From Actinomycetes bacterium (GTDB taxonomy: Bacteria > Actinomycetota > Acidimicrobiia > Acidimicrobiales > Bog-793): a DNA stretch of 64,000 bases. Of the stretch, positions 36,802-45,641 are shown piece after piece. Below the pieces are notes generated by a model. It did no database searches, was not told the origin of the DNA, and saw nothing but the letters and a program-made list of their open reading frames with translations. The stretch is from NCBI GenBank assembly GCA_021798985.1, contig JAJZBI010000007.1, positions 62,001 to 126,000 of the forward strand. The letters are read 5' to 3'. Positions within the stretch are counted from its first letter, which is position 1. Every line of letters starts with the position of its first letter. The translations under genes were made by a program, and so were the position numbers.

Positions 36802-37323
36802 GCTGCCTCCCTCGAGGTTGCCGGTCACTGACCCGCGCCGAGAGCTCGCGCACCGCGCGAACCCCACGGCCCGGGTGCGGCCACGACCTGGTGGCCCGCC
36901 GTAATCGAAGCTCGCATCGGCTGCTCGCTCGCGAACAGACGCCGTGGGATCGAAGGCGCGCCGCGGGGGAGCGCGCGTGGCCTGGTGTGGCATCGCACCG
37001 GCATGGTCTGGCCTCGCTTGTCGCCCACGTCTGCCCAGGCCATCCGAGCAGAACGCCTCCCCGAGCGCCAGGGCACAACGGCCCGTTGGCCGCAGCTGAT
37101 GGTCGTCGCCCGCCGGTGGGAGACCGAGTGGCGTCTCCGAACGTCGCGAGCCATGCATCTCGGCGCAACGCCAGAACTTCTCACCTGCGCGTGAATATCG
37201 TAGGGCGACCTACCTAGAGAGATCGCTTCCATGCGCATCTCGCCCGCTCGGGCGCGAAGTCGCGCGCGGAGGCGGACCGGGTTTATCTAGTACTCAGTGA
37301 GTTAAATTGTCCCCGGGCGCGCT
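36802..37323. other. Divergent regulatory region, no gene seen
   Basis: 522 bases between the GH94 gene and the SufR-like regulator. The left part is GC-rich and featureless. From 37190 it becomes AT-richer and holds TATCGTAG (37196-37203), an inverted GTAGG-GCGA-CCTAC (37200-37213), CTAGA (37214-37218) and the TCTAG-containing site at 37286. Short open frames here do not look like protein. Confidence 0.5.
37286..37307 (+). promoter_or_regulatory. Promoter and TCTAG-type site of the SufR-like regulator gene
   Basis: TTTATCTAG (37282-37290) is followed by a palindrome ACTCA-G-TGAGT (37292-37302) and by TTAAAT (37302-37307), a possible -10 box 17 bases before the first ATG. The nine-base TTTATCTAG is repeated exactly before the hemerythrin gene at 38171-38179, which suggests a shared regulator, possibly the product of this gene. 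Confidence 0.5.
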
Positions 37324-38031
37324 ATGCTTGCCTCGATGCCAGCTCGGACCCCGACGATCTCACAAGAGGTGCTCCCCCGGGCCCGCGCGCTCGGCGACCC
37401 AACGCGTTTTCGGATCTTCCGCTACGTGCTTGAGGCCAACCGCCCCGTCGGCGTCGCCGAGCTGACGAACTTCGTCCAGCTCAACCACAATGCGGTGCGC
37501 CAGCACCTGGCGGTGCTCGCGACCGCGGGCCTGGTCAGCGAGCGGACCGAGGAGCAACGCAGCGGCCCTGGGCGTCCGCGACTGCTCTACGAGGTCGCCC
37601 CCGAGGTCACTGGCACCTGGGAGATCCCGGGACCCTATGAGTTCCTTGCGACGCTGCTGAGCGAGATCCTGGCCACCGGCGACAGCCCTGAAGAGGTCGG
37701 TCGCCGCGCTGGTCGGCGTCGTGCCGACGAGATCGCGCACGCAGCGGGTGCCGACCCCGTGGCGACGATCGAGCGGGAGCTCGCGCGCACGGGGTTTCGT
37801 CCTACCCTGCGCGAGGGGACGGAGCGCTGCGACGTCGTCCTCGGCAACTGCCCGTTCGAGCGAGCGGCCCTGGCCAACCGGGCGGCGGTGTGCAGCGTCC
37901 ATCGTGGGCTCGCGAAGGGGCTCGCCGAGGGCCTCGGCGACACCGTGGTCGTCGACGACCTGGTGGCCCGCAACCCGAGCCGAGCTGGGTGCCGGGTGCT
38001 GCTCCACCGTCGTCTGCCTGACGAGGTCTGA
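37324..38031 (+). CDS. SufR/ArsR-like winged-helix regulator with four-cysteine metal domain
   Basis: 235 residues from ATG 37324 (ATG 37336 is equally possible). Residues 15-95 are a winged helix: RALGDPTRFRIFRYVLEA, VGVAELTNFVQLNHNAVRQH (recognition helix) and GPGRPRLLYE (wing). The C-terminal half has cysteines at about 169, 176, 190 and 223 in ERCDVVLGNCPF, AAVCSVHRGLAKG and SRAGCRVLLHR. This pattern resembles the Fe-S-binding domain of SufR, which senses cluster status, oxygen or NO. The cysteine spacing (6, 13 and 32 residues) differs from cyanobacterial SufR. It reads away from the GH94 gene and lies upstream of the hemerythrin-DUF2249 gene with a similar promoter motif, so it likely controls that block. 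Confidence 0.85.
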   Translation: MLASMPARTPTISQEVLPRARALGDPTRFRIFRYVLEANRPVGVAELTNFVQLNHNAVRQHLAVLATAGLVSERTEEQRSGPGRPRLLYEVAPEVTGTWEIPGPYEFLATLLSEILATGDSPEEVGRRAGRRRADEIAHAAGADPVATIERELARTGFRPTLREGTERCDVVLGNCPFERAALANRAAVCSVHRGLAKGLAEGLGDTVVVDDLVARNPSRAGCRVLLHRRLPDEV

Positions 38032-38170
38032 GCCGCCGGCTGGGCCGAAGGCCCCGCGCGCCGTGAGTGCCGCGCCATCTGACCACGCGCCATCGACGGC
38101 CCGCACGATCATCTGCCGGCCCCGCGTCGACCTTCCCGGACGCCCCGACGGCCTTGAGCAGGCTTGAATA

Positions 38171-38190
38171 TTTATCTAGGTTCAACTAGA
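38171..38190 (+). promoter_or_regulatory. TCTAG-N6-CTAGA operator before hemerythrin-DUF2249
   Basis: TCTAG (38175-38179) and CTAGA (38186-38190) are perfect inverted arms around gttcaa. TTGAAT (38164-38169) and TAGAGA (38187-38192), 17 bases apart, would form a promoter overlapping the site. The same 5-6-5 geometry occurs at 41614-41629 (TCTAC/GTAGA). Confidence 0.6.
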
Positions 38191-38252
38191 GAATAGTGGA
38201 CCCACGGCTCGGTCGGTGCATCGATCGGCGCGAGGACGAGAGGAGCACATCC

Positions 38253-39467
38253 ATGGCGCGCAGCGAGAGCGAGGCCTTCGAGGCCATGCTGTCCCACCAC
38301 CGTTCACTCGAAGAAGACCTGGGAGGCCGGGTGAAGGCGCTGGTCGACGGGGTCTCGGGCGGCGCGCCCTTCGCGCCGCCAGCGGCCGAGCTCGTCGCCT
38401 ACTTCGGAAGCGAGATCCTGCCCCACGCGCTCGCCGAAGAGCAGTCGATCTATCGCGCCGCCGCGCGGCGTCCCGAGCTCAGCGCGACGGTCGCCGAGAT
38501 GGAAGACGAGCACCGAATCCTGATCACCCAGGCCGAGCGCATCGCGCAGGCAGCGACGGCGACCGAGGCCGTGGCGGCCGCGGGAGCGCTGTCGTCGTTG
38601 TTCGCCGGCCATGTGGCCAAGGAGAACGAGCTGATCCTCCCCAAGCTGCTCGAGGACGACCACGTCGATCTCACCAAGCTGCTCGAGGAGATGCACCAGC
38701 TCCTCGCGCATCACGAGGCCCCCGCGGCGGCCGCGGCGACCTCGCCCGACGCGCTCGGTGCGATCGTGCCCTTGCTCGTCCGGGCGGCCGACGAGCTCGC
38801 CAACGCCGAACAGGGGGATCTCGGTTGCCGTCTCGTCGCCTCGGCCTGGGCGGTGCTGCGCCCTGAGCGCCCCGAGCTCGCCACGCGCCTCACCGCGGCG
38901 CTGCATCGGCTCGTCCGCAAGGTCACGAGCGAGCCCGTCACCTTGCGGGGCACCAAAGCGGCAGCGGGCGCCGAGCCGCCCAGCCTCCTCGACGTCCGTC
39001 CGCTGGCGCCCGCCCAGCGCCATGGGGCGATCTTCTCGAGCTACGTCGCGCTCGCGCCCGGCGCGAGCTTCGTCTTGGTCAACGACCACGATCCAAAGCC
39101 GCTGCAGTACCAGTTCGAGGCCGAGCACGCCGGCGAGTACACCTGGGAGTACCTCGAGGGCGGACCGAGGGTCTGGCGGGTGCGGATCGGCAAGGCGTCG
39201 CTGCGGGCGCAGGAGGATGGCGAGACCGCTGAGCCGGATCTCGACGTCCGGCCGCTCACGCATGGCAACCGGCACGCGGTGATCTTTTCCACCTACGCCG
39301 CGCTTGGTCCTGGTGCTGGCTTCGTGCTGGTGAACGACCACGACCCGCGGCCGCTCCGCTACCAGTTCGAGGCGCAGCACGCCGGCGAGTACACCTGGGA
39401 CTACCTCGAAGCGGGGCCCGCGATCTGGCGCGTCCGCATCGGCAGGGTGGCGAGCCCGGCGGCCTGA
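38253..39467 (+). CDS. Hemerythrin domain fused to two DUF2249 domains
   Basis: 404 residues; ATG 38253 follows GAGAGGAG. Residues 8-150 form a hemerythrin-like four-helix bundle: MLSHHRSLEEDL, FGSEILPHALAEEQSIYRA, EMEDEHRILITQ and GHVAKENELILPKLLE, with histidines and glutamates spaced for a di-iron site. A helical linker (about 155-235) precedes two DUF2249 domains at about 255-325 and 335-400: LLDVRPLAPAQRHGAIFSSY, FVLVNDHDPKPLQYQFEAEH and GEYTWEYLEGGPRVWRVRIG, then LDVRPLTHGNRHAVIFSTY and FVLVNDHDPRPLRYQFEAQH. DUF2249 proteins occur with NO and respiratory genes. A role in handling NO, oxygen or Fe-S repair is inferred from domain and neighbours. Confidence 0.88.
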   Translation: MARSESEAFEAMLSHHRSLEEDLGGRVKALVDGVSGGAPFAPPAAELVAYFGSEILPHALAEEQSIYRAAARRPELSATVAEMEDEHRILITQAERIAQAATATEAVAAAGALSSLFAGHVAKENELILPKLLEDDHVDLTKLLEEMHQLLAHHEAPAAAAATSPDALGAIVPLLVRAADELANAEQGDLGCRLVASAWAVLRPERPELATRLTAALHRLVRKVTSEPVTLRGTKAAAGAEPPSLLDVRPLAPAQRHGAIFSSYVALAPGASFVLVNDHDPKPLQYQFEAEHAGEYTWEYLEGGPRVWRVRIGKASLRAQEDGETAEPDLDVRPLTHGNRHAVIFSTYAALGPGAGFVLVNDHDPRPLRYQFEAQHAGEYTWDYLEAGPAIWRVRIGRVASPAA

Positions 39468-39602
39468 GCTCGCCTCGCCGGCTCTGGCGCGACCCGCTTG
39501 CAAGCCGGGCGGCGCGCCGGCGGTGAGGGCCGGCCCCTTTGCGCGCGCTTTGGGGCCACGAGCACACGCCAGAGCGGCAAGAGCGATAAGGGAAGGGTGC
39601 AC

Positions 39603-39836
39603 ATGAAGGTATGGATCGACCAAAGCCTTTGCACAGGCGATGGGCTGTGTGAGGAGATCTGCCCGCAGGTCTTCACGCTCCTCGACGACGGGCTCGCCTA
39701 CGTGAAAGCGGGCGAGCGCGTGCTGAGCGACCCGGGAGGCGCCTCGAGCCTTGCGAACGTGCCGGAAGGGCTCGAGGACGCGGTACGCGAGGCGGCTGAG
39801 GAGTGCCCGGGAGAGTGCATCTTCCTCGTCGAGTAG
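39603..39836 (+). CDS. Ferredoxin with one Fe-S cluster and an aspartate in the cluster motif
   Basis: 77 residues; ATG 39603 follows AAGGGAAGGG. The cluster motif is CTGDGLCEEICP at residues 10-21, in which an aspartate takes the place of the second cysteine of CxxCxxCxxxCP. A distal CPGECIFLVE ends the protein. In Pyrococcus ferredoxin the equivalent Asp ligates a convertible [4Fe-4S]/[3Fe-4S] cluster; here a [3Fe-4S] form is also possible. Such small ferredoxins feed electrons to P450s or other oxidoreductases. It follows the hemerythrin-DUF2249 gene by 136 bases on the same strand, and may be its electron partner or be independent. Confidence 0.9.
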   Translation: MKVWIDQSLCTGDGLCEEICPQVFTLLDDGLAYVKAGERVLSDPGGASSLANVPEGLEDAVREAAEECPGECIFLVE

Positions 39837-40099
39837 CAGGTTGCGACGAACCCCGGGTGCCTCACGGGCTGGTGGGGTCGGCGAGCAGCGCCCGCTCGGT
39901 GTCCCGGCGAGCTCGCCACCGCCCAGCCCGTGGTGGACGCGCGCGGCGGACGCGGACGCTCAGATCGCCCCGCGTTGGCTGACCGCCCGTGGCTCGCCTG
40001 GTGGTGCGCCTGGCGTTGCTGGCTGTCGACGAAGCGGGCCGCACCGACAGGCTCACGGCCAGAGTGCGCCGGCGCGTCGGCCGGAGCGAGGCGTTCGGT

Positions 40100-41467
40100 T
40101 CAACGGCTCGCCGGCCCGGCGCGCTCGGCGGTGACCGCCGTGGTCGAGCTGGCATGGCGGATCATCCGCAAGGGAATCACCATCAAGCTCACGGCGACCA
40201 CGACGCCCGTCACGGCGAGGAGGGCGCCGGCAACGGCGACGAGCGTGGGCGCAGCGGCGCCGAGGCCGATGCACAGCGCGGCCATGGCGAGCGTCACCGA
40301 GACATAGGCGGCGCCAGCAGCTCTGCGGTCGAAGAGATCGGAGAACATGAGCGGCTTGCCGGCCGGCCCGGAGCTGATCGAGCGGGAGCGCAGCGCAGAC
40401 CAAAGAATGAAGGGGACCACCTTGTAGGAATGGCCGACCAGTGCCTCGAGCAGCCAGCCACCGAAGGCCGCCACGGCCGCGGCGGTGAGCGACGTCCCAA
40501 CCTGTGGGTCCTTGTGCACCGACACAGCGGCGGCGAGGGAGAGCGCCGCACCGAGCACCAGCCAGCTGGCCGCAGTGATGACGAAGAGGAGATGCAGGTC
40601 GGCCTTGCGGCGGCGATGCGCGACGTGGGCGGTGAGCGACCATAGATGGGCGCCAAGGCCGGCGGTCATGAGCGCCGCGCCGATCCAGGCGAGCACGGTG
40701 ATGCTCCACGCGAGGCCTGGTGTGGCCAGCAAGAGCCCGCTGCCGACGCCCACGACCGCCAGATGGCCGGCCCGCTTCGGGCCGGGGACGTGGGCGAGCA
40801 TGAACATCGGCCAGAGCTTCTCAGCGACGCCGAGGTAGGTCATGCCGAGCCAGCCGAAGATGCCAAGGACGCCCATTGCGAGATCGACATGTCCGGCAAG
40901 CGCGAACCAGTTGCCCTGGCGGTCGCCGATGAAGGCGATGCCGAGAAAGCCGGTGACAAGGGCGCCGACGAGCGCGATGCGAAGGGCCAGCACGGGAGCT
41001 CCCTTGCCGCGCGCGGCGAGCGGGCCGGAGAGGTTGACCGCCAAGAGCACGAGGGCGAGCCCGGTGAGCGCCCCGCTGATCGCCGTCACGGCGAGCTGTT
41101 GTGTCGCAACGCCGAGCGGCAGCATCCACGAGGCCGCCACGAAGCTGATCAACGTGGCGCGGGCGAGCGGCACCGACCGCAGAGGCCTGCCCGTGATGAC
41201 GGGGGCGAACTGATGGGTAGCGCCGAGGATTCCCGTGGCGAGGGTCGCCAAGACGCCGAGGTGGACGGCCGCCACGACCGGGTCGGCAGTCGGATCGTTG
41301 GCGGCGGCGCTGCGCGCGAGGACCCAGGCAACCCCGCAGCCGACGAGTCCGACGGCGGCGGCGAACAGGAAACTCAAAGGGACCGACGGCGGCGGGACGG
41401 TGGCGGGGACCCCGGCGGGGCGCTCGGCCCACGAGCCGGTCGCGGCGCGCGGGTCAGGCGGCATCAT
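40100..41467 (-). CDS. Multi-pass heme-copper-oxidase subunit I/NnrS-like membrane protein
   Basis: 455 residues with about 12 hydrophobic segments. Histidines sit in positions expected of heme or copper ligands: VVAAVHLGVLATLATGILGA with THQFAPVITG (H69, H85), AGHVDLAMGVLGIFGWLG (H193) and EALVGHSYKVVPFILW (H346). This pattern is known from stand-alone subunit-I-like proteins related to cbb3 oxidases and to NnrS, a heme-copper protein of NO metabolism. The lysine/copper residues of a full oxidase are not evident and no cytochrome c subunit is near, so true oxidase activity is doubtful. ATG at 41467 (or 41464) lies 198 bases from the divergent DUF2249 gene, with an operator-like palindrome in between. 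Function by family is moderately sure only. Confidence 0.7.
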   Translation of the reverse strand: MMPPDPRAATGSWAERPAGVPATVPPPSVPLSFLFAAAVGLVGCGVAWVLARSAAANDPTADPVVAAVHLGVLATLATGILGATHQFAPVITGRPLRSVPLARATLISFVAASWMLPLGVATQQLAVTAISGALTGLALVLLAVNLSGPLAARGKGAPVLALRIALVGALVTGFLGIAFIGDRQGNWFALAGHVDLAMGVLGIFGWLGMTYLGVAEKLWPMFMLAHVPGPKRAGHLAVVGVGSGLLLATPGLAWSITVLAWIGAALMTAGLGAHLWSLTAHVAHRRRKADLHLLFVITAASWLVLGAALSLAAAVSVHKDPQVGTSLTAAAVAAFGGWLLEALVGHSYKVVPFILWSALRSRSISSGPAGKPLMFSDLFDRRAAGAAYVSVTLAMAALCIGLGAAAPTLVAVAGALLAVTGVVVAVSLMVIPLRMIRHASSTTAVTAERAGPASR

Positions 41468-41607
41468 CCGTGCCCCTGTGCGCTGCCGGCCCCATGGCGA
41501 TGGTCCGCCCGCTCCGGCGCTGTTCCCCGAGCGATGCGTTCATCCAGATCACTCGTGTGGACCATGTCGTCGCTCGCTCCACCCGGTTCCTCCGTGTCGC
41601 TTCATGA

Positions 41608-41629
41608 TATAACTCTACCTGTAAGTAGA
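41608..41629 (+). promoter_or_regulatory. Promoter with TCTAC-N6-GTAGA operator before DUF2249 gene
   Basis: TATAAC (41608-41613) looks like a -10 box and is followed at once by a perfect palindrome, TCTAC-ctgtaa-GTAGA (41614-41629), which would cover the transcription start. The site lies between the DUF2249 operon and the divergent NnrS-like gene and could control both. It matches the geometry of the operator at 38175. Confidence 0.6.
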
Positions 41630-41664
41630 AAAACATGCTGAAGATGCTTGAGAGGAGTGGCGAG

Positions 41665-41886
41665 ATGGCCGTTGTCGATGCCCGCCCGATGATCGCCGCA
41701 GGCGACGAGCCGTTTGAGACGATCATGGCGGCTGTTGCCGGGCTCGGGGAGACCGAGGAGCTGGTGGTGCTCGCCCCCTTTGAGCCCGTGCCCCTTGAGG
41801 GCGTCCTGTCGTCCCAGGGCTTCGTCTACGAGGCGGTCAACCTCGAGGGCGAGAACTGGCAGGTGACCTTCAGGCGCCAGGCATGA
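41665..41886 (+). CDS. Single DUF2249 domain protein
   Basis: 73 residues: VVDARPMIAAGDEPFETIMA, LVVLAPFEPVPLEGVLSSQG and FVYEAVNLEGENWQVTFRRQ, the core of DUF2249 (TusA-like fold). ATG 41665 follows GAGAGGAG; an upstream ATG at 41635 in the same frame is less likely. It is followed by a DUF59 gene with a 4-base ATGA overlap, so the two are translationally coupled. Function of the family is unknown; its link to NO and Fe-S genes fits the hemerythrin-DUF2249 fusion 3.4 kb upstream. Confidence 0.85.
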   Translation: MAVVDARPMIAAGDEPFETIMAAVAGLGETEELVVLAPFEPVPLEGVLSSQGFVYEAVNLEGENWQVTFRRQA

Positions 41887-42266
41887 GCCGTTCCGAGGGA
41901 GCTCGCGTGTCGCGCAGCGACAAGGTGTCCATTGGCCCGACGAGGGAGCAAACGGCGCCTTCCTCGGCGGTCGAGGGCGCCTGGGGCGCGCTCGGGTGCG
42001 TCTATGACCCAGAGCTGTGTCTCGACGTCGTCTCCCTCGGCCTCGTCTATCGCGTCTGGGAGGACGAGACGGGCCTGCACGTGGAGATGACGCTCACGAC
42101 TCCAGGCTGCCCGGCCGCCGAGGCGATGCCCGAGATCGTGAGGCACGCGGTGCAGGACGCCGTCGGCCCGCAGGTGGCCGTCGACGTTGCGCTCGTGTGG
42201 GACCCACCGTGGAGCCCGGCGATGATGGCCGAGGACGCCGCGGCGGCGCTCGGCTTGCGGCGCTAG
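41883..42266 (+). CDS. DUF59 (MIP18/SufT-like) iron-sulfur cluster assembly factor
   Basis: 127 residues. After a variable 30-residue N-terminus comes the DUF59 domain: LGCVYDPELCLDVVSLGLVY, VEMTLTTPGCPAAEAMPEIV and VDVALVWDPPWSPAMMAEDA. The PGCP cysteine is the conserved family residue; an extra cysteine in PELCLD is unusual. These proteins help insert Fe-S clusters (SufT, PaaD). The start overlaps the stop of the DUF2249 gene (ATGA), indicating a shared message. Its presence supports an Fe-S repair role for this operon. Confidence 0.87.
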   Translation: MSRSEGARVSRSDKVSIGPTREQTAPSSAVEGAWGALGCVYDPELCLDVVSLGLVYRVWEDETGLHVEMTLTTPGCPAAEAMPEIVRHAVQDAVGPQVAVDVALVWDPPWSPAMMAEDAAAALGLRR

Positions 42267-42341
42267 GTGCCCAGCCGAGTGCCTCCGGAGGGGCCAATCG
42301 CCCGCCCGGCCGCGAGCAGGACGATGAGAACGGAGCAAGAC

Positions 42342-42473
42342 ATGAGCCAAGCCAAGCCAGCGCCACGCAAGCTGGCCCAAGCAGCCGAGGCGGGCGCTGA
42401 CCGAGCGCGCGCGAAGGCTCGGAGCGCAACGTCTGGCATTGACGCTGCCAGGCACGAGCGAGGCGCGCGATGA
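42342..42473 (+). CDS. Small basic ORF coupled to the NHL gene
   Basis: 43 codons. ATG 42342 follows GGAGC at a proper distance, and its stop overlaps the next start (ATGA at 42470-42473). The product, MSQAKPAPRKLAQAAEAGAD and so on, is basic and alanine-rich, with a likely single helix. No family is recognised. Coupling and the ribosome site support translation; it may serve only to couple the NHL gene to the operon. Confidence 0.45.
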   Translation: MSQAKPAPRKLAQAAEAGADRARAKARSATSGIDAARHERGAR

Positions 42474-43459
42474 CCGCGCTGGCGCCCGAGCTGGTCCGCC
42501 ACGCCCCGGTCAACCAGCGCGGCATCCGTCCGGCGCAGCTCGACAGCTCGGTACCTTCCTCGGACGGATTCGAGCTCGCCTTCATCGAGCGCGCCGGCGG
42601 GATCGCCGCGACCACGAGCGGAGCGTTCTATGTCTCTGATCTCGCGCACGGCGCGATCTGGCGCTGTGGGCGTGATGGCTCGGCGGTGCCCGTGCTGGGC
42701 CGGTGGCGCGGTGCGCCCGATCGGCCTCGCAGCGCGGCGGGGCTCGCCCTCGCGCCCGACAAAGCGCTCGTGGTCGCGGATCCCTCCGGGCAGCGGATCT
42801 GGCGCGTCGCTCTGGACGGCGCGTGCCGTGTCCTTGCCGGCGACTGCTACGGACATCGCGATGGGGCAGCGGGCGACGCGCTCTTCCGCTTCCCGAGCGG
42901 CGTTGCGGTCGCGCCCGACGGCACCTGCTATGTCGCCGACACCGGGAACGACAAGGTCCGCACCATCTCACCGGACGGCCACGTGGCGACGCTCGCCGGC
43001 TCGATCTTCACCTTCGCCGACGGTCAAGGGACCGCTGCGGGGTTCCGCCGACCGAGCGCGCTCGCGCTCGACGGCGCGGGAACCTGTGCCGTCGCCGACA
43101 CGGAGAACAACGCGATCCGTCTTGTTGCACCCGATGGCACCGTGACGACGCTCGCCGGCTCACCGCCTGGCGGCTCAGCCGATGGGGTGGGGACGGGAGC
43201 GGATCTGCAGGGGCCGAGTGCGATCGCCGCCGGGCACGACGCCCGTTGGTGGGTCGCCGACTACGCCAACGGCTCGTTGCGAGTGATCGGGACCGATGGG
43301 CGGGTGCGCACGGGCCTTCGCCTGCCCGAGCGCACGTGGCCCGTCGCGGTGGCGGTGCCCGGCGACGGCTCCGTCGTAGCGCTCGCTGCGTCGCGCGCGA
43401 CGAGTCGCCCGACGACCGTGGTCCGCATCCTCGACGTGTCGAGGATGCTGCTTCATTGA
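42470..43459 (+). CDS. NHL-repeat beta-propeller protein
   Basis: 329 residues with about six NHL-type blades: GGIAATTSGAFYVSDLAHGA, RSAAGLALAPDKALVVADPS, RFPSGVAVAPDGTCYVADTG, GNDKVRTISPDGHVATLAGS, RRPSALALDGAGTCAVADTE and NNAIRLVAPDGTVTTLAGSP. The GTxYVADTGN pattern is diagnostic of NHL repeats. No signal peptide, so the propeller is probably cytoplasmic, which is less common. It may be a scaffold or a ligand-binding protein; the role in the DUF2249/DUF59 operon is unknown. It starts inside the stop of the small upstream ORF. Confidence 0.87.
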   Translation: MTALAPELVRHAPVNQRGIRPAQLDSSVPSSDGFELAFIERAGGIAATTSGAFYVSDLAHGAIWRCGRDGSAVPVLGRWRGAPDRPRSAAGLALAPDKALVVADPSGQRIWRVALDGACRVLAGDCYGHRDGAAGDALFRFPSGVAVAPDGTCYVADTGNDKVRTISPDGHVATLAGSIFTFADGQGTAAGFRRPSALALDGAGTCAVADTENNAIRLVAPDGTVTTLAGSPPGGSADGVGTGADLQGPSAIAAGHDARWWVADYANGSLRVIGTDGRVRTGLRLPERTWPVAVAVPGDGSVVALAASRATSRPTTVVRILDVSRMLLH

Positions 43460-43511
43460 ACTGCAGGTGGCGTCCCGGTCGGAAGAACGATGGCAGTCGA
43501 AGTGAGGTGAC

Positions 43512-43826
43512 ATGGAGACCTATATCGAGCTTGAGAACGCGAATTGCACCCGGTGCCATAACCGCGTCGTCGCCGCGCTGCGAGCGCGCCCGCGGGTTGC
43601 CAAGGTCCGCGCCGACTTCTCCGCCGGCTGCATCGTCGTCGAGCACGACGATGATGCAGCTGAGCTGGTCGGAGTGGCCGAAGCGATGGCGCGCGCCGTG
43701 GTCGTCGCCTCCAACGGTGAGCGCGTGATGGTCGCTGTTGAGGCCCACCAGGCCCACGAGTGCCACTTCGGCGCGCGGGTGGCGCGCGACGCTGCCGCCT
43801 CAGGCGCGCGAGGCCCCGGCCGCTGA
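43512..43826 (+). CDS. HMA-like small metal-binding protein
   Basis: 104 residues. The N-terminal 70 resemble a heavy-metal-associated domain: NCTRCHNRVVAALRARPRVA, KVRADFSAGCIVVEHDDDA. The CxxC pair is in the usual loop, followed by His. Histidines and another cysteine in AHQAHECHFG near 80-87 could add a second site. The C-terminus is short and basic. ATG 43512 follows GTGAGGTGAC. It lies 52 bases after the NHL gene and ends the operon-like run. Copper or another soft metal is the likely ligand; iron is also possible given the context. Confidence 0.7.
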   Translation: METYIELENANCTRCHNRVVAALRARPRVAKVRADFSAGCIVVEHDDDAAELVGVAEAMARAVVVASNGERVMVAVEAHQAHECHFGARVARDAAASGARGPGR

Positions 43827-43942
43827 GCGATGCGGCCGGCTCGCTGGGCGAGACCAGGGATGCCGGGGCGTCCACGACGCATAGGGCCCGCGCCCGTCAC
43901 GGTGACCATTGCCCAGCTCGCGGGCCGAGCACCGCCTCGCGA

Positions 43943-45424
43943 TCAGTGGGGCGAGGCCGGCCAGGCGTCGCTGAGCTCATCCCCGAGGCGCACCATCGCG
44001 TCTGCGAGCCCGTCGACCTGTTCACCACGCGTGCGGCCGTTGATGAAGCAGGGACGGATGGCGAACCTGCCGCCGACGAGCGTCGAGCTCGGCAAGAAGG
44101 CCGTCTCGTGGATGAGGCGCCGAAGCAGCGCAGCGTTCAGGCGGTTCAGGTCGGCGACGCCCTCGCGGCGGTAGCGGACGCAGGCGATCGACAGCTCGGG
44201 CGCGCTGAGCGGCTCGAGACGCGGGTGTGCCGCCGCGAGGGCAGTCAGGTGGCGGGCGAGGTCGTTGTCCTGAACGATCCGGGCGCGCACGCCCTGTCGA
44301 CCGAGCGCGCGCAGGATCGCCCAGACCACCACGCCACGCGCCGGCGCAGACAGCTCGAGACCGAAGTCGGCGTAGGGGACGCCCATCTGGTCGAGCGAGC
44401 TGCGCAGATCGCCAGCGGGGGCGAAGGAGCCCTCGAGGTAGTCCGCCGGCTCTTGGGTGAAGGCGCGGTGCAAGATCGCGCGATCGCGCACGAAGGTGGC
44501 GGCAATGCCGACGGGCGCGCCGAGCCACTTGTGCGGGTCGACGATCGCCGAGTCGGCGAGCTCGAGCCCGTCATAGCGGGTGGCGATCCGCTCGTCCAGG
44601 ACGCCGGGCAGCCCGTAAGCGCCGTCGACATGGAACCAGGCGCCAGCATCTCGCGCCGCCTCGCCGGCGGCGCGCAACGGGTCGATCGCGCCGGTGTTGG
44701 TGGTGCCGGCGGTCGCGACCACCGCGACGGGGATGATCCCAGCCCGGCGATCGGCCGCGAGCGCCCTGTTCAGCGTGGCGATGTCGAGGCGCTGGGCCTG
44801 ATCGGCGGGCAGCACCCGGACGTTTCGCCGGCCGATGCCGAGCACGGCTGCCGCGCGCTGGACGGTGTGATGCGCCTCGGTCGAGGTGTAGATCGCGCCG
44901 ACCCGCCCCCCGAGCCCGTCGGCGGCCGGGTCGACACCGTGCTGCTCGTAGGCCCACTGGCGCGCCGCCCCGAGCGCGACCAGGTTCGCCGCCGAGCCGC
45001 CGCTTGAATAGACGCCCTTCATGTGCCCGGGGAGCGCGCAGAGCTGCCCGAGCCAGTCGAGCGAGACCTCCTCGAGTGCGTTGAACGCCGTGATGGTGTA
45101 GCGCTGGGGCGAGGCGATGCTGGCGGCGAAGGAGGTCACGGCCGCCAGCGCGCCGGGGGCCGCGGTGATGAAGCCCCAAAAGCCCTCCTCGTGCAGGCGC
45201 GAGCCGTTGGGGACCACGCTCGAGACGAGCTCGTCGAGGACCGCTTCGCCCCCGATCCCGGCGGCAGGCAGCGTGGCCTCGAGCGCCGGCCAGCTGCTGC
45301 GCCGCTCGAGCGCGTCCTGGCGCGTCGGTGCGCAGATGCCCTGGAGGGCTCGGGCCACCTCCCCGCTGTAGTGCTCGAGCAGGCGGTAGCTGGTGACGGA
45401 CTCGATGTGGCGATCCTCGCCCAT
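43943..45424 (-). CDS. PLP-dependent aromatic-L-amino-acid decarboxylase family protein
   Basis: 493 residues, normal for group II decarboxylases. Key segments are EEGFWGFITAAPGALAAVTS, YSSGGSAANLVALGAARQWA (PLP phosphate site), TSTEAHHTVQRAAAVLGI with the ring-stacking histidine, ATAGTTNTGAIDPLR, AWFHVDGAYGLPGVL (PLP aspartate) and SAIVDPHKWLGAPVGIA, whose lysine forms the Schiff base. The enzyme removes the carboxyl group from an aromatic or related amino acid; exact substrate unknown (tryptophan, tyrosine, DOPA or glutamate-like). ATG 45424 precedes MGEDRHIESV, where family similarity starts. It is divergent from the GGDEF gene. Confidence 0.9.
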   Translation of the reverse strand: MGEDRHIESVTSYRLLEHYSGEVARALQGICAPTRQDALERRSSWPALEATLPAAGIGGEAVLDELVSSVVPNGSRLHEEGFWGFITAAPGALAAVTSFAASIASPQRYTITAFNALEEVSLDWLGQLCALPGHMKGVYSSGGSAANLVALGAARQWAYEQHGVDPAADGLGGRVGAIYTSTEAHHTVQRAAAVLGIGRRNVRVLPADQAQRLDIATLNRALAADRRAGIIPVAVVATAGTTNTGAIDPLRAAGEAARDAGAWFHVDGAYGLPGVLDERIATRYDGLELADSAIVDPHKWLGAPVGIAATFVRDRAILHRAFTQEPADYLEGSFAPAGDLRSSLDQMGVPYADFGLELSAPARGVVVWAILRALGRQGVRARIVQDNDLARHLTALAAAHPRLEPLSAPELSIACVRYRREGVADLNRLNAALLRRLIHETAFLPSSTLVGGRFAIRPCFINGRTRGEQVDGLADAMVRLGDELSDAWPASPH

Positions 45425-45641
45425 GGCCGGAGCATACGTTGTGCCTCGCCGACGGCCTCGGACCATTGGACCACCCCTGCTCGGCGCGCCGCGCGTCTGG
45501 CGCCACGGCCTGGAGTGCTCGCCAAGGCGCGATGTGGGTGCGACAATCGTCGTCGGTGTCGGGGGGTGCAGGTTTCGGCTTGGTGGCACGACGGGTCGGG
45601 CGAGCGCGCTCAGCGCGGGTCGAGGTCGAGGAGGCGCTCGG

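Follow-up and report, generated by a model that had tools for sequence, protein, structure and literature searches.

How are the genes controlled that lie together at positions 37282-43826 of a 64,000-nucleotide stretch of DNA from an Actinomycetes bacterium of the Acidimicrobiia (contig JAJZBI010000007.1 of assembly GCA_021798985.1, positions 62,001 to 126,000; hereafter the window)? A preliminary description proposed that one regulator, encoded at the start of the locus and here called P0001, acts on iron-sulfur (Fe-S) and nitric oxide (NO) stress genes through shared operators. This outline is upheld by comparison with related bacteria, since the predicted sites and their targets are conserved in dozens of related genomes. 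Sequence comparison establishes the motif, its predicted targets and their tracking of the regulator clade. We consider it likely that P0001 is a SufR/ArnR-like regulator of an Fe-S-repair and NO-defence regulon, which would act through a shared palindrome by binding a cluster and being released from DNA.

A shared operator that tracks the regulator clade

The two perfect palindromes described over promoters are both present: TCTAGGTTCAACTAGA lies at 38175-38190 and TCTACCTGTAAGTAGA at 41614-41629. The window holds no other exact match to TCTAS-N6-STAGA; four matches are found with one mismatch allowed, against 0.86 expected. As also described, TTTATCTAG occurs at both 37282 and 38171. The whole genome (3.76 Mb in 71 contigs) contains three exact sites, and the short 10-base pattern alone is near background genome-wide in most genomes of the relatives, which are Acidimicrobiia; a 24-bp model was therefore used. 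The genome-wide motif scan put forward earlier stays near background with the short pattern, whereas a covariance model trained on other genera (R1, below) ranks the site at 38171 first.

For the window scan, a position weight matrix (PWM) was built from 99 sites of other genera, with 60 shuffles as control. Its top three independent positions are 38171 (33.0 bits), 41610 (28.3 bits) and 37282 (8.7 bits); the fourth and fifth overlap the first two in shifted register, and the sixth scores 2.6 bits. The highest shuffle score was 15.6 bits, which puts 38171 and 41610 far above chance; since 5 of the 60 shuffles reach at least 8.7 bits, the predicted site at 37282 is only suggestive when taken alone. 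The shared operators are strong at 38171 and 41610, while the site at 37282 is degenerate, though most relatives' regulator promoters carry one. A genome of the same genus retains all three, before the regulator (18.2 bits), hemerythrin (37.5 bits) and DUF2249 (28.3 bits) genes, and its counterpart of the 41610 operator reads TAACTCTACTGGAAACTAGACAAA.

The relatives were sampled as 80 named loci (1.13 Mb) found with a regulator protein profile. In these loci, TCTAS-N6-STAGA gives 48 matches at its spacing of 6, compared to 7 at spacing 1 and 0-2 at the remaining spacings, with 0-4 matches for control palindromes. The T and A positions flanking the pattern, which were not used as seeds, are conserved as well. 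The resulting 24-bp motif, TTnTTCTAGT-N4-ACTAGAAnAA, has 177 sites versus none in Markov-shuffled sequence, and 168 of them lie outside genes (9 inside). At least one site is found in 73 of the 80 loci and at least two in 51. Lack of conservation in related genomes had been named as the result that would speak against the regulon; the sites are conserved there.

The orthologues of P0001 form a clade with support of 100/99, mainly from Acidimicrobiales, and the predicted operator sites track it. Using R1, a covariance model built on sequence alone from the sites of other genera, matches were obtained in 20 of 36 genomes with an orthologue versus 2 of 62 without (Fisher p = 3e-9), in a test partly biased toward carriers because the training sites were taken from regulator neighbourhoods. 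This bias weighs against the proposed regulon, as do the 16 of 36 carriers without an R1 match at that threshold and the strong sites in G049 and G066, two genomes where no orthologue was detected. Both genomes could indicate that the operator is bound by another regulator, with P0001 merely co-regulated, as could the lower mean strength of the sites before the regulator gene (20.2 bits, versus 30.9 before hemerythrin). We regard this as the least probable of the alternatives considered here: the sites follow the P0001 clade and are absent at paralogues, they occupy an autoregulatory position, preceding the regulator's own gene in 57 of 83 cases, and G049 and G066 are draft assemblies in which the gene may be missing. 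At the loci of paralogous (tier-2) regulators, neither a shared motif among perfect 5-6-5 or 6-6-6 palindromes nor a TCTAG operator was found.

In L212:7304-9880 (G250, same phylum but outside Acidimicrobiia), the genes for DUF2249, a heme-copper-like membrane protein and DUF59 stand in a row with that of a paralogous regulator with three cysteines, and no TCTAG operator is present; the gene partnership is therefore probably older than the operator. The window genome encodes a second SufR-like paralogue (L143:6448-8572, G000:C62), divergent from a Mrp/ApbC-like gene named by eye. Closely related regulator clusters also occur in G186 (L195, elsewhere in the phylum) and in L058, a metagenome-assembled genome labelled Bacillota, through mis-binning or transfer.

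Genes of the locus and predicted targets of the operator

The features of the locus are as follows.

37282..37305, plus strand: weak operator TTTATCTAGTACTCAGTGAGTTAA upstream of the regulator gene, left half-site intact, right half degenerate
37324..38031, plus strand: regulator P0001, 235 amino acids (aa), ArsR-type winged helix (Pfam HTH_20/HTH_5) and C-terminal sensor domain
38171..38194, no strand assigned: predicted operator TTTATCTAGGTTCAACTAGAGAAT upstream of hemerythrin-DUF2249, best PWM score in the window
38253..39467, plus strand: hemerythrin with two DUF2249 domains, 404 aa (Pfam)
39603..39836, plus strand: ferredoxin with a single 4Fe-4S cluster (Pfam Fer4_15)
40100..41467, minus strand: P0004, 12-helix membrane protein like heme-copper oxidases and NO reductases (AlphaFold2 (AF2) model, structure comparison)
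41610..41633, no strand assigned: predicted operator TAACTCTACCTGTAAGTAGAAAAA between P0004 and DUF2249, 28.3 bits
41665..41886, plus strand: stand-alone DUF2249 protein, 73 aa (Pfam)
41883..42266, plus strand: DUF59/SufT-like protein (Pfam FeS_assembly_P; NCBIfam SUF_assoc below cut-off)
42470..43459, plus strand: NHL-repeat protein, an occasional accessory (Pfam NHL over cut-off)
43512..43826, plus strand: HMA-like CxxC protein outside the core (HMA match just under cut-off)

Matches over the Pfam cut-offs cover ArsR/HTH_20, hemerythrin with two DUF2249 domains, the single-cluster ferredoxin, DUF2249, DUF59 and NHL, and the flanks carry genes for a GH94 enzyme and a pyridoxal phosphate (PLP) decarboxylase. 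The gene set first proposed is thus borne out for hemerythrin-DUF2249, ferredoxin, DUF2249 and DUF59, and has to be trimmed of the NHL and HMA genes. Both are absent downstream of DUF2249-DUF59 in the same-genus genome, and their protein clusters in the 80 loci are tiny (five NHL members and two HMA members with the window proteins counted, HMA being found in one relative), which rules them out as core members. An NHL gene is found again in the isolate Acidiferrimicrobium sp. IK, within its DUF2249 operon. At 42470-45430 of the window, DUF59 and a GGDEF-like gene are separated by the NHL, HMA-like and PLP-decarboxylase genes, which are missing from that place in the congener (L215, G002:C19).

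A site precedes 35 of the 36 members of the hemerythrin-DUF2249 cluster, 28 of the 30 in the DUF2249 cluster and 17 of the 33 in the cluster of P0004-type membrane proteins. DUF59 is the second gene of the DUF2249 operon in most relatives, and the ferredoxin gene is a probable operon partner of hemerythrin-DUF2249; the order of these two is also seen in the L153 and L159 neighbourhoods, and the ferredoxin cluster has five members. Every DUF2249 gene of the window genome has a preceding operator. Genome-wide, R1 places the hemerythrin site at the top, followed by a CMD/AhpD promoter.

Operator sites also lie near suf genes in several relatives. A site precedes sufB in L157, is intergenic before sufBCD in L145 and L147, and in L153 stands before a hemerythrin gene with sufB behind it. 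In G007, G053, G080 and G091, sites are found either at sufBCD or shortly upstream of it, and in G094 the regulator gene follows a globin-like gene, divergent from sufBCD. Further genes preceded by sites in relatives encode truncated globin, nitronate monooxygenase, peroxiredoxin, CMD, an FAD/NAD oxidoreductase and Hsp20, together with Ric/DUF542-hemerythrin behind a weak site (16.6) and, in some relatives (L155, L075), narG.

Other occurrences of the operator were seen beside these targets. The CMD/AhpD-like gene with the second-best operator of the window genome lies outside the window (G000:C38:1794-2318, L144), and its pairing with the operator is repeated in G049 (L150), one of the genomes in which no orthologue of the regulator was detected. 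In three loci (among them L063, about 748, and L065, about 723), an aceE-like pyruvate dehydrogenase E1 gene has an operator of about 27 bits in front of it. The first gene behind the operator repeatedly belongs to a family of about 100 aa without a Pfam match (L108:11424-11714), which often stands ahead of the heme-copper-like protein.

P0004 itself had been described as NnrS/heme-copper-like, and the second half of that label is the one that stands. P0004 has no Pfam match, and NnrS was rejected with no match in 27 family members at E up to 1. The AF2 model (pLDDT 81) superposes on cbb3 subunit I with Z 31.2 over 389 residues and on NorB of cNOR with Z 29.1 over 379 residues (VIA); judged from this model, P0004 is a heme-copper oxidase/NO-reductase fold of the NorB/CcoN type. 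In its family, His69 and His346 are invariant and His193 is present in 26 of 27 members. His69 and the family pair His346-x-His348 are reminiscent of the heme ligands in helices 2 and 10; P0004 itself carries Tyr at position 348, and helix 7 has no adjacent His pair.

The regulator and its proposed mode of action

The Pfam search of P0001 returned winged helices only (ArsR-type and LexA-type helix-turn-helix), with no Rrf2 or FNR domain. Its score against TIGR02702, the cyanobacterial SufR equivalog, is 21.3 bits for a cut-off of 178.8, which places it outside that family. The name SufR-like suits the three-cysteine winged-helix layout of P0001, but neither the TIGR02702 cut-off nor the SufR operator CAAC-N6-GTTG. 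The four cysteines to which NO or cluster sensing had been ascribed are present in the sensor region, at 169, 176, 190 and 223; those conserved are Cys176, Cys190 and Cys223 (37/37, 37/37 and 36/37), along with His193. A set of four conserved cysteines is ruled out by Cys169, found in 3/37. The spacing C-x13-C-x31/32-C is the same in most paralogues.

The AF2 model of P0001 has a pLDDT of 87.6. Residues 10-102 match ArsR structures, and residues 92-232 align to TRAPP Bet3/TPC6 chains with Z of about 12 over 126-128 residues, with no Pfam V4R match. The VIA list for P0001 is dominated by the winged helix, and the absence of other sensor folds from it is uninformative. The analysis came upon no solved structure of either SufR or ArnR. 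Relatives of the V4R type with three cysteines are known both as a zinc site, in the DmpR sensory domain where the metal is bound by three Cys and a Glu (PMC7264223), and as a redox switch, in MsvR (PMC3729527); a metal or cluster site in the sensor domain of P0001 is therefore plausible by analogy.

The V4R-like fold of the sensor model, along with the peroxiredoxin and AhpD-like genes among the targets, would also suit a thiol redox switch like that of methanogen MsvR, in which oxidation of the three cysteines would release the DNA without any Fe-S cluster. We consider such a switch unlikely, as the sufBCD, DUF59, Ric and truncated-globin targets favour Fe-S/NO over plain oxidation, the Cys/His layout agrees with that of ArnR, a protein reported to carry a [4Fe-4S] cluster (PMC12343034), and the fold is not matched by V4R in Pfam. 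The zinc site of DmpR, the ArsR-type winged helix, the HMA-like neighbour in the window and the roughly 0.5 Zn per protein in as-isolated and apo ArnR (PMC12343034) would fit a metal sensor, with the three cysteines binding zinc, copper or iron and the regulon serving in metal-stress defence. However, none of the genes behind a site was recognised as a metal transporter, the HMA gene lacks conservation, and the targets are hemerythrin, DUF2249, DUF59, suf and globin, which makes a metal sensor very improbable.

For the cluster-binding regulator that we favour, the closest guide is ArnR of Corynebacterium glutamicum, which is reported to carry a [4Fe-4S] cluster, Cys179/193/223 and a conserved His, and to bind DNA in an NO-sensitive manner (PMC12343034). 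By analogy with ArnR we infer cluster binding and NO sensing by P0001, and from the position of the sites, repression. P0001, from a clade found mainly in Acidimicrobiia, would presumably be a homodimeric repressor whose winged helices bind TWn-TTCTAGT-N4-ACTAGAA-nWA over the promoters of hemerythrin-DUF2249(-ferredoxin), DUF2249-DUF59, P0004 and the AhpD-like CMD gene elsewhere in the genome, and more weakly over that of its own gene. In its C-terminal domain, Cys176, Cys190 and Cys223, possibly joined by His193, would most likely hold an Fe-S cluster. The cluster-loaded dimer would repress until NO or nitrosylation, oxidants or iron shortage damage the cluster and release it, and the induced products would handle NO and reactive oxygen species and help rebuild Fe-S centres.

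Most sites have their centre 15-76 bp ahead of a start codon, a position suited to a repressor. Some, at 61-76 bp, would fit the position of a cluster-dependent activator if transcripts are leaderless, but this is improbable given that 17 of 59 one-directional sites have centres so close to the start codon (15-34 bp) that they fall inside or downstream of any core promoter, and that published descriptions make both ArnR and actinobacterial SufR repressors (PMC12343034, PMC11995493).

To the counter-evidence from the genome comparison, several points have to be added. No -35 box at a fixed distance was seen upstream of the sites, so that repression is argued from distance alone, and the Fe-S cluster, DNA binding and regulated expression of P0001 are predicted properties. 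The suf operon of the window genome (L211) has no operator site, and neither NarG nor the Cu-nitrite reductase NirK has a match over cut-off in that genome. The role of the regulator there may therefore be narrower than in relatives, and NO would come from outside or from another enzyme, or the signal would be general cluster loss; NO need not be the only or the main signal in the window genome.

Comparison with known regulatory systems

In the literature searched, neither this operator, regulon and distribution nor DUF2249, hemerythrin and NnrS together were found, and DUF2249 itself is rarely mentioned. The combination had been called seemingly undescribed; in that literature this stands for the operator, the regulon and their distribution, but not for the regulator, whose SufR/ArnR-like type is known. 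The locus is thus well supported as a new regulon of a known regulator type rather than a new class. It offers a predicted Fe-S/NO-stress circuit, with exact operator and target list, for a large environmental actinobacterial group known mostly from metagenomes. Genome comparison also gives evidence for joint action of DUF2249, DUF59 and a divergent NorB/CcoN-like protein, which makes their function testable. The structural model further suggests that SufR/ArnR-type sensors may belong to a V4R-like fold. A bolder and rather doubtful extension is that P0001 represents an undescribed branch of ArsR-type regulators with three cysteines, in which a V4R/TRAPP-like sensor would hold an Fe-S cluster in place of zinc or redox thiols, and that it is the main regulator of NO and Fe-S damage in Acidimicrobiia, with DUF2249 and the NorB-like protein as conserved effectors. 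If so, DUF2249 would be an Fe-S/NO repair or NO-handling factor.

We take COG4309 to be DUF2249. The NO regulons of NsrR and NnrR include COG4309, nnrS, dnrN/ytfE and norB (Rodionov 2005, PMC1274295), but these are Rrf2 and CRP/FNR regulators with other motifs, domains that P0001 lacks. DrpA/DrpB of Thermus and haloarchaeal DUF2249 proteins are tied to nitrate respiration and denitrification, and the parts of these reports consulted describe no ArsR-type three-cysteine regulator with a TCTAG operator (PMC6282519, PMC11218638).

MsvR combines a DNA-binding domain with a three-cysteine V4R-type sensor and has an inverted-repeat operator, autoregulation and an oxidative-stress operon (PMC3729527), features with predicted counterparts in P0001; it differs in being archaeal and a proposed thiol switch, and P0001 matches V4R in modelled fold and not in sequence. 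Actinobacterial and cyanobacterial SufR share the three-cysteine ArsR-like type, and in several Acidimicrobiia the regulator or its sites are near or upstream of sufBCD. The half-sites of the known SufR operator, CAAC-N6-GTTG (PMC11995493), are in the same register as those of the Acidimicrobiia operator, yet their sequence is CAAC versus TCTAG here, and the suf operon of the window genome is without a site. ArnR (Cgl1185) was compared by its reported layout and targets rather than by sequence or operator. It controls hmp and narKGHJI, whereas the core in Acidimicrobiia consists of hemerythrin-DUF2249, DUF2249-DUF59 and the heme-copper-like protein, with narG in few relatives. ArnR and P0001 have in common a MarR/ArsR winged helix, a similar size, three cysteines at closely corresponding positions (179/193/223 versus 176/190/223), a His near the cluster or its predicted site and targets related to NO and nitrate (PMC12343034).

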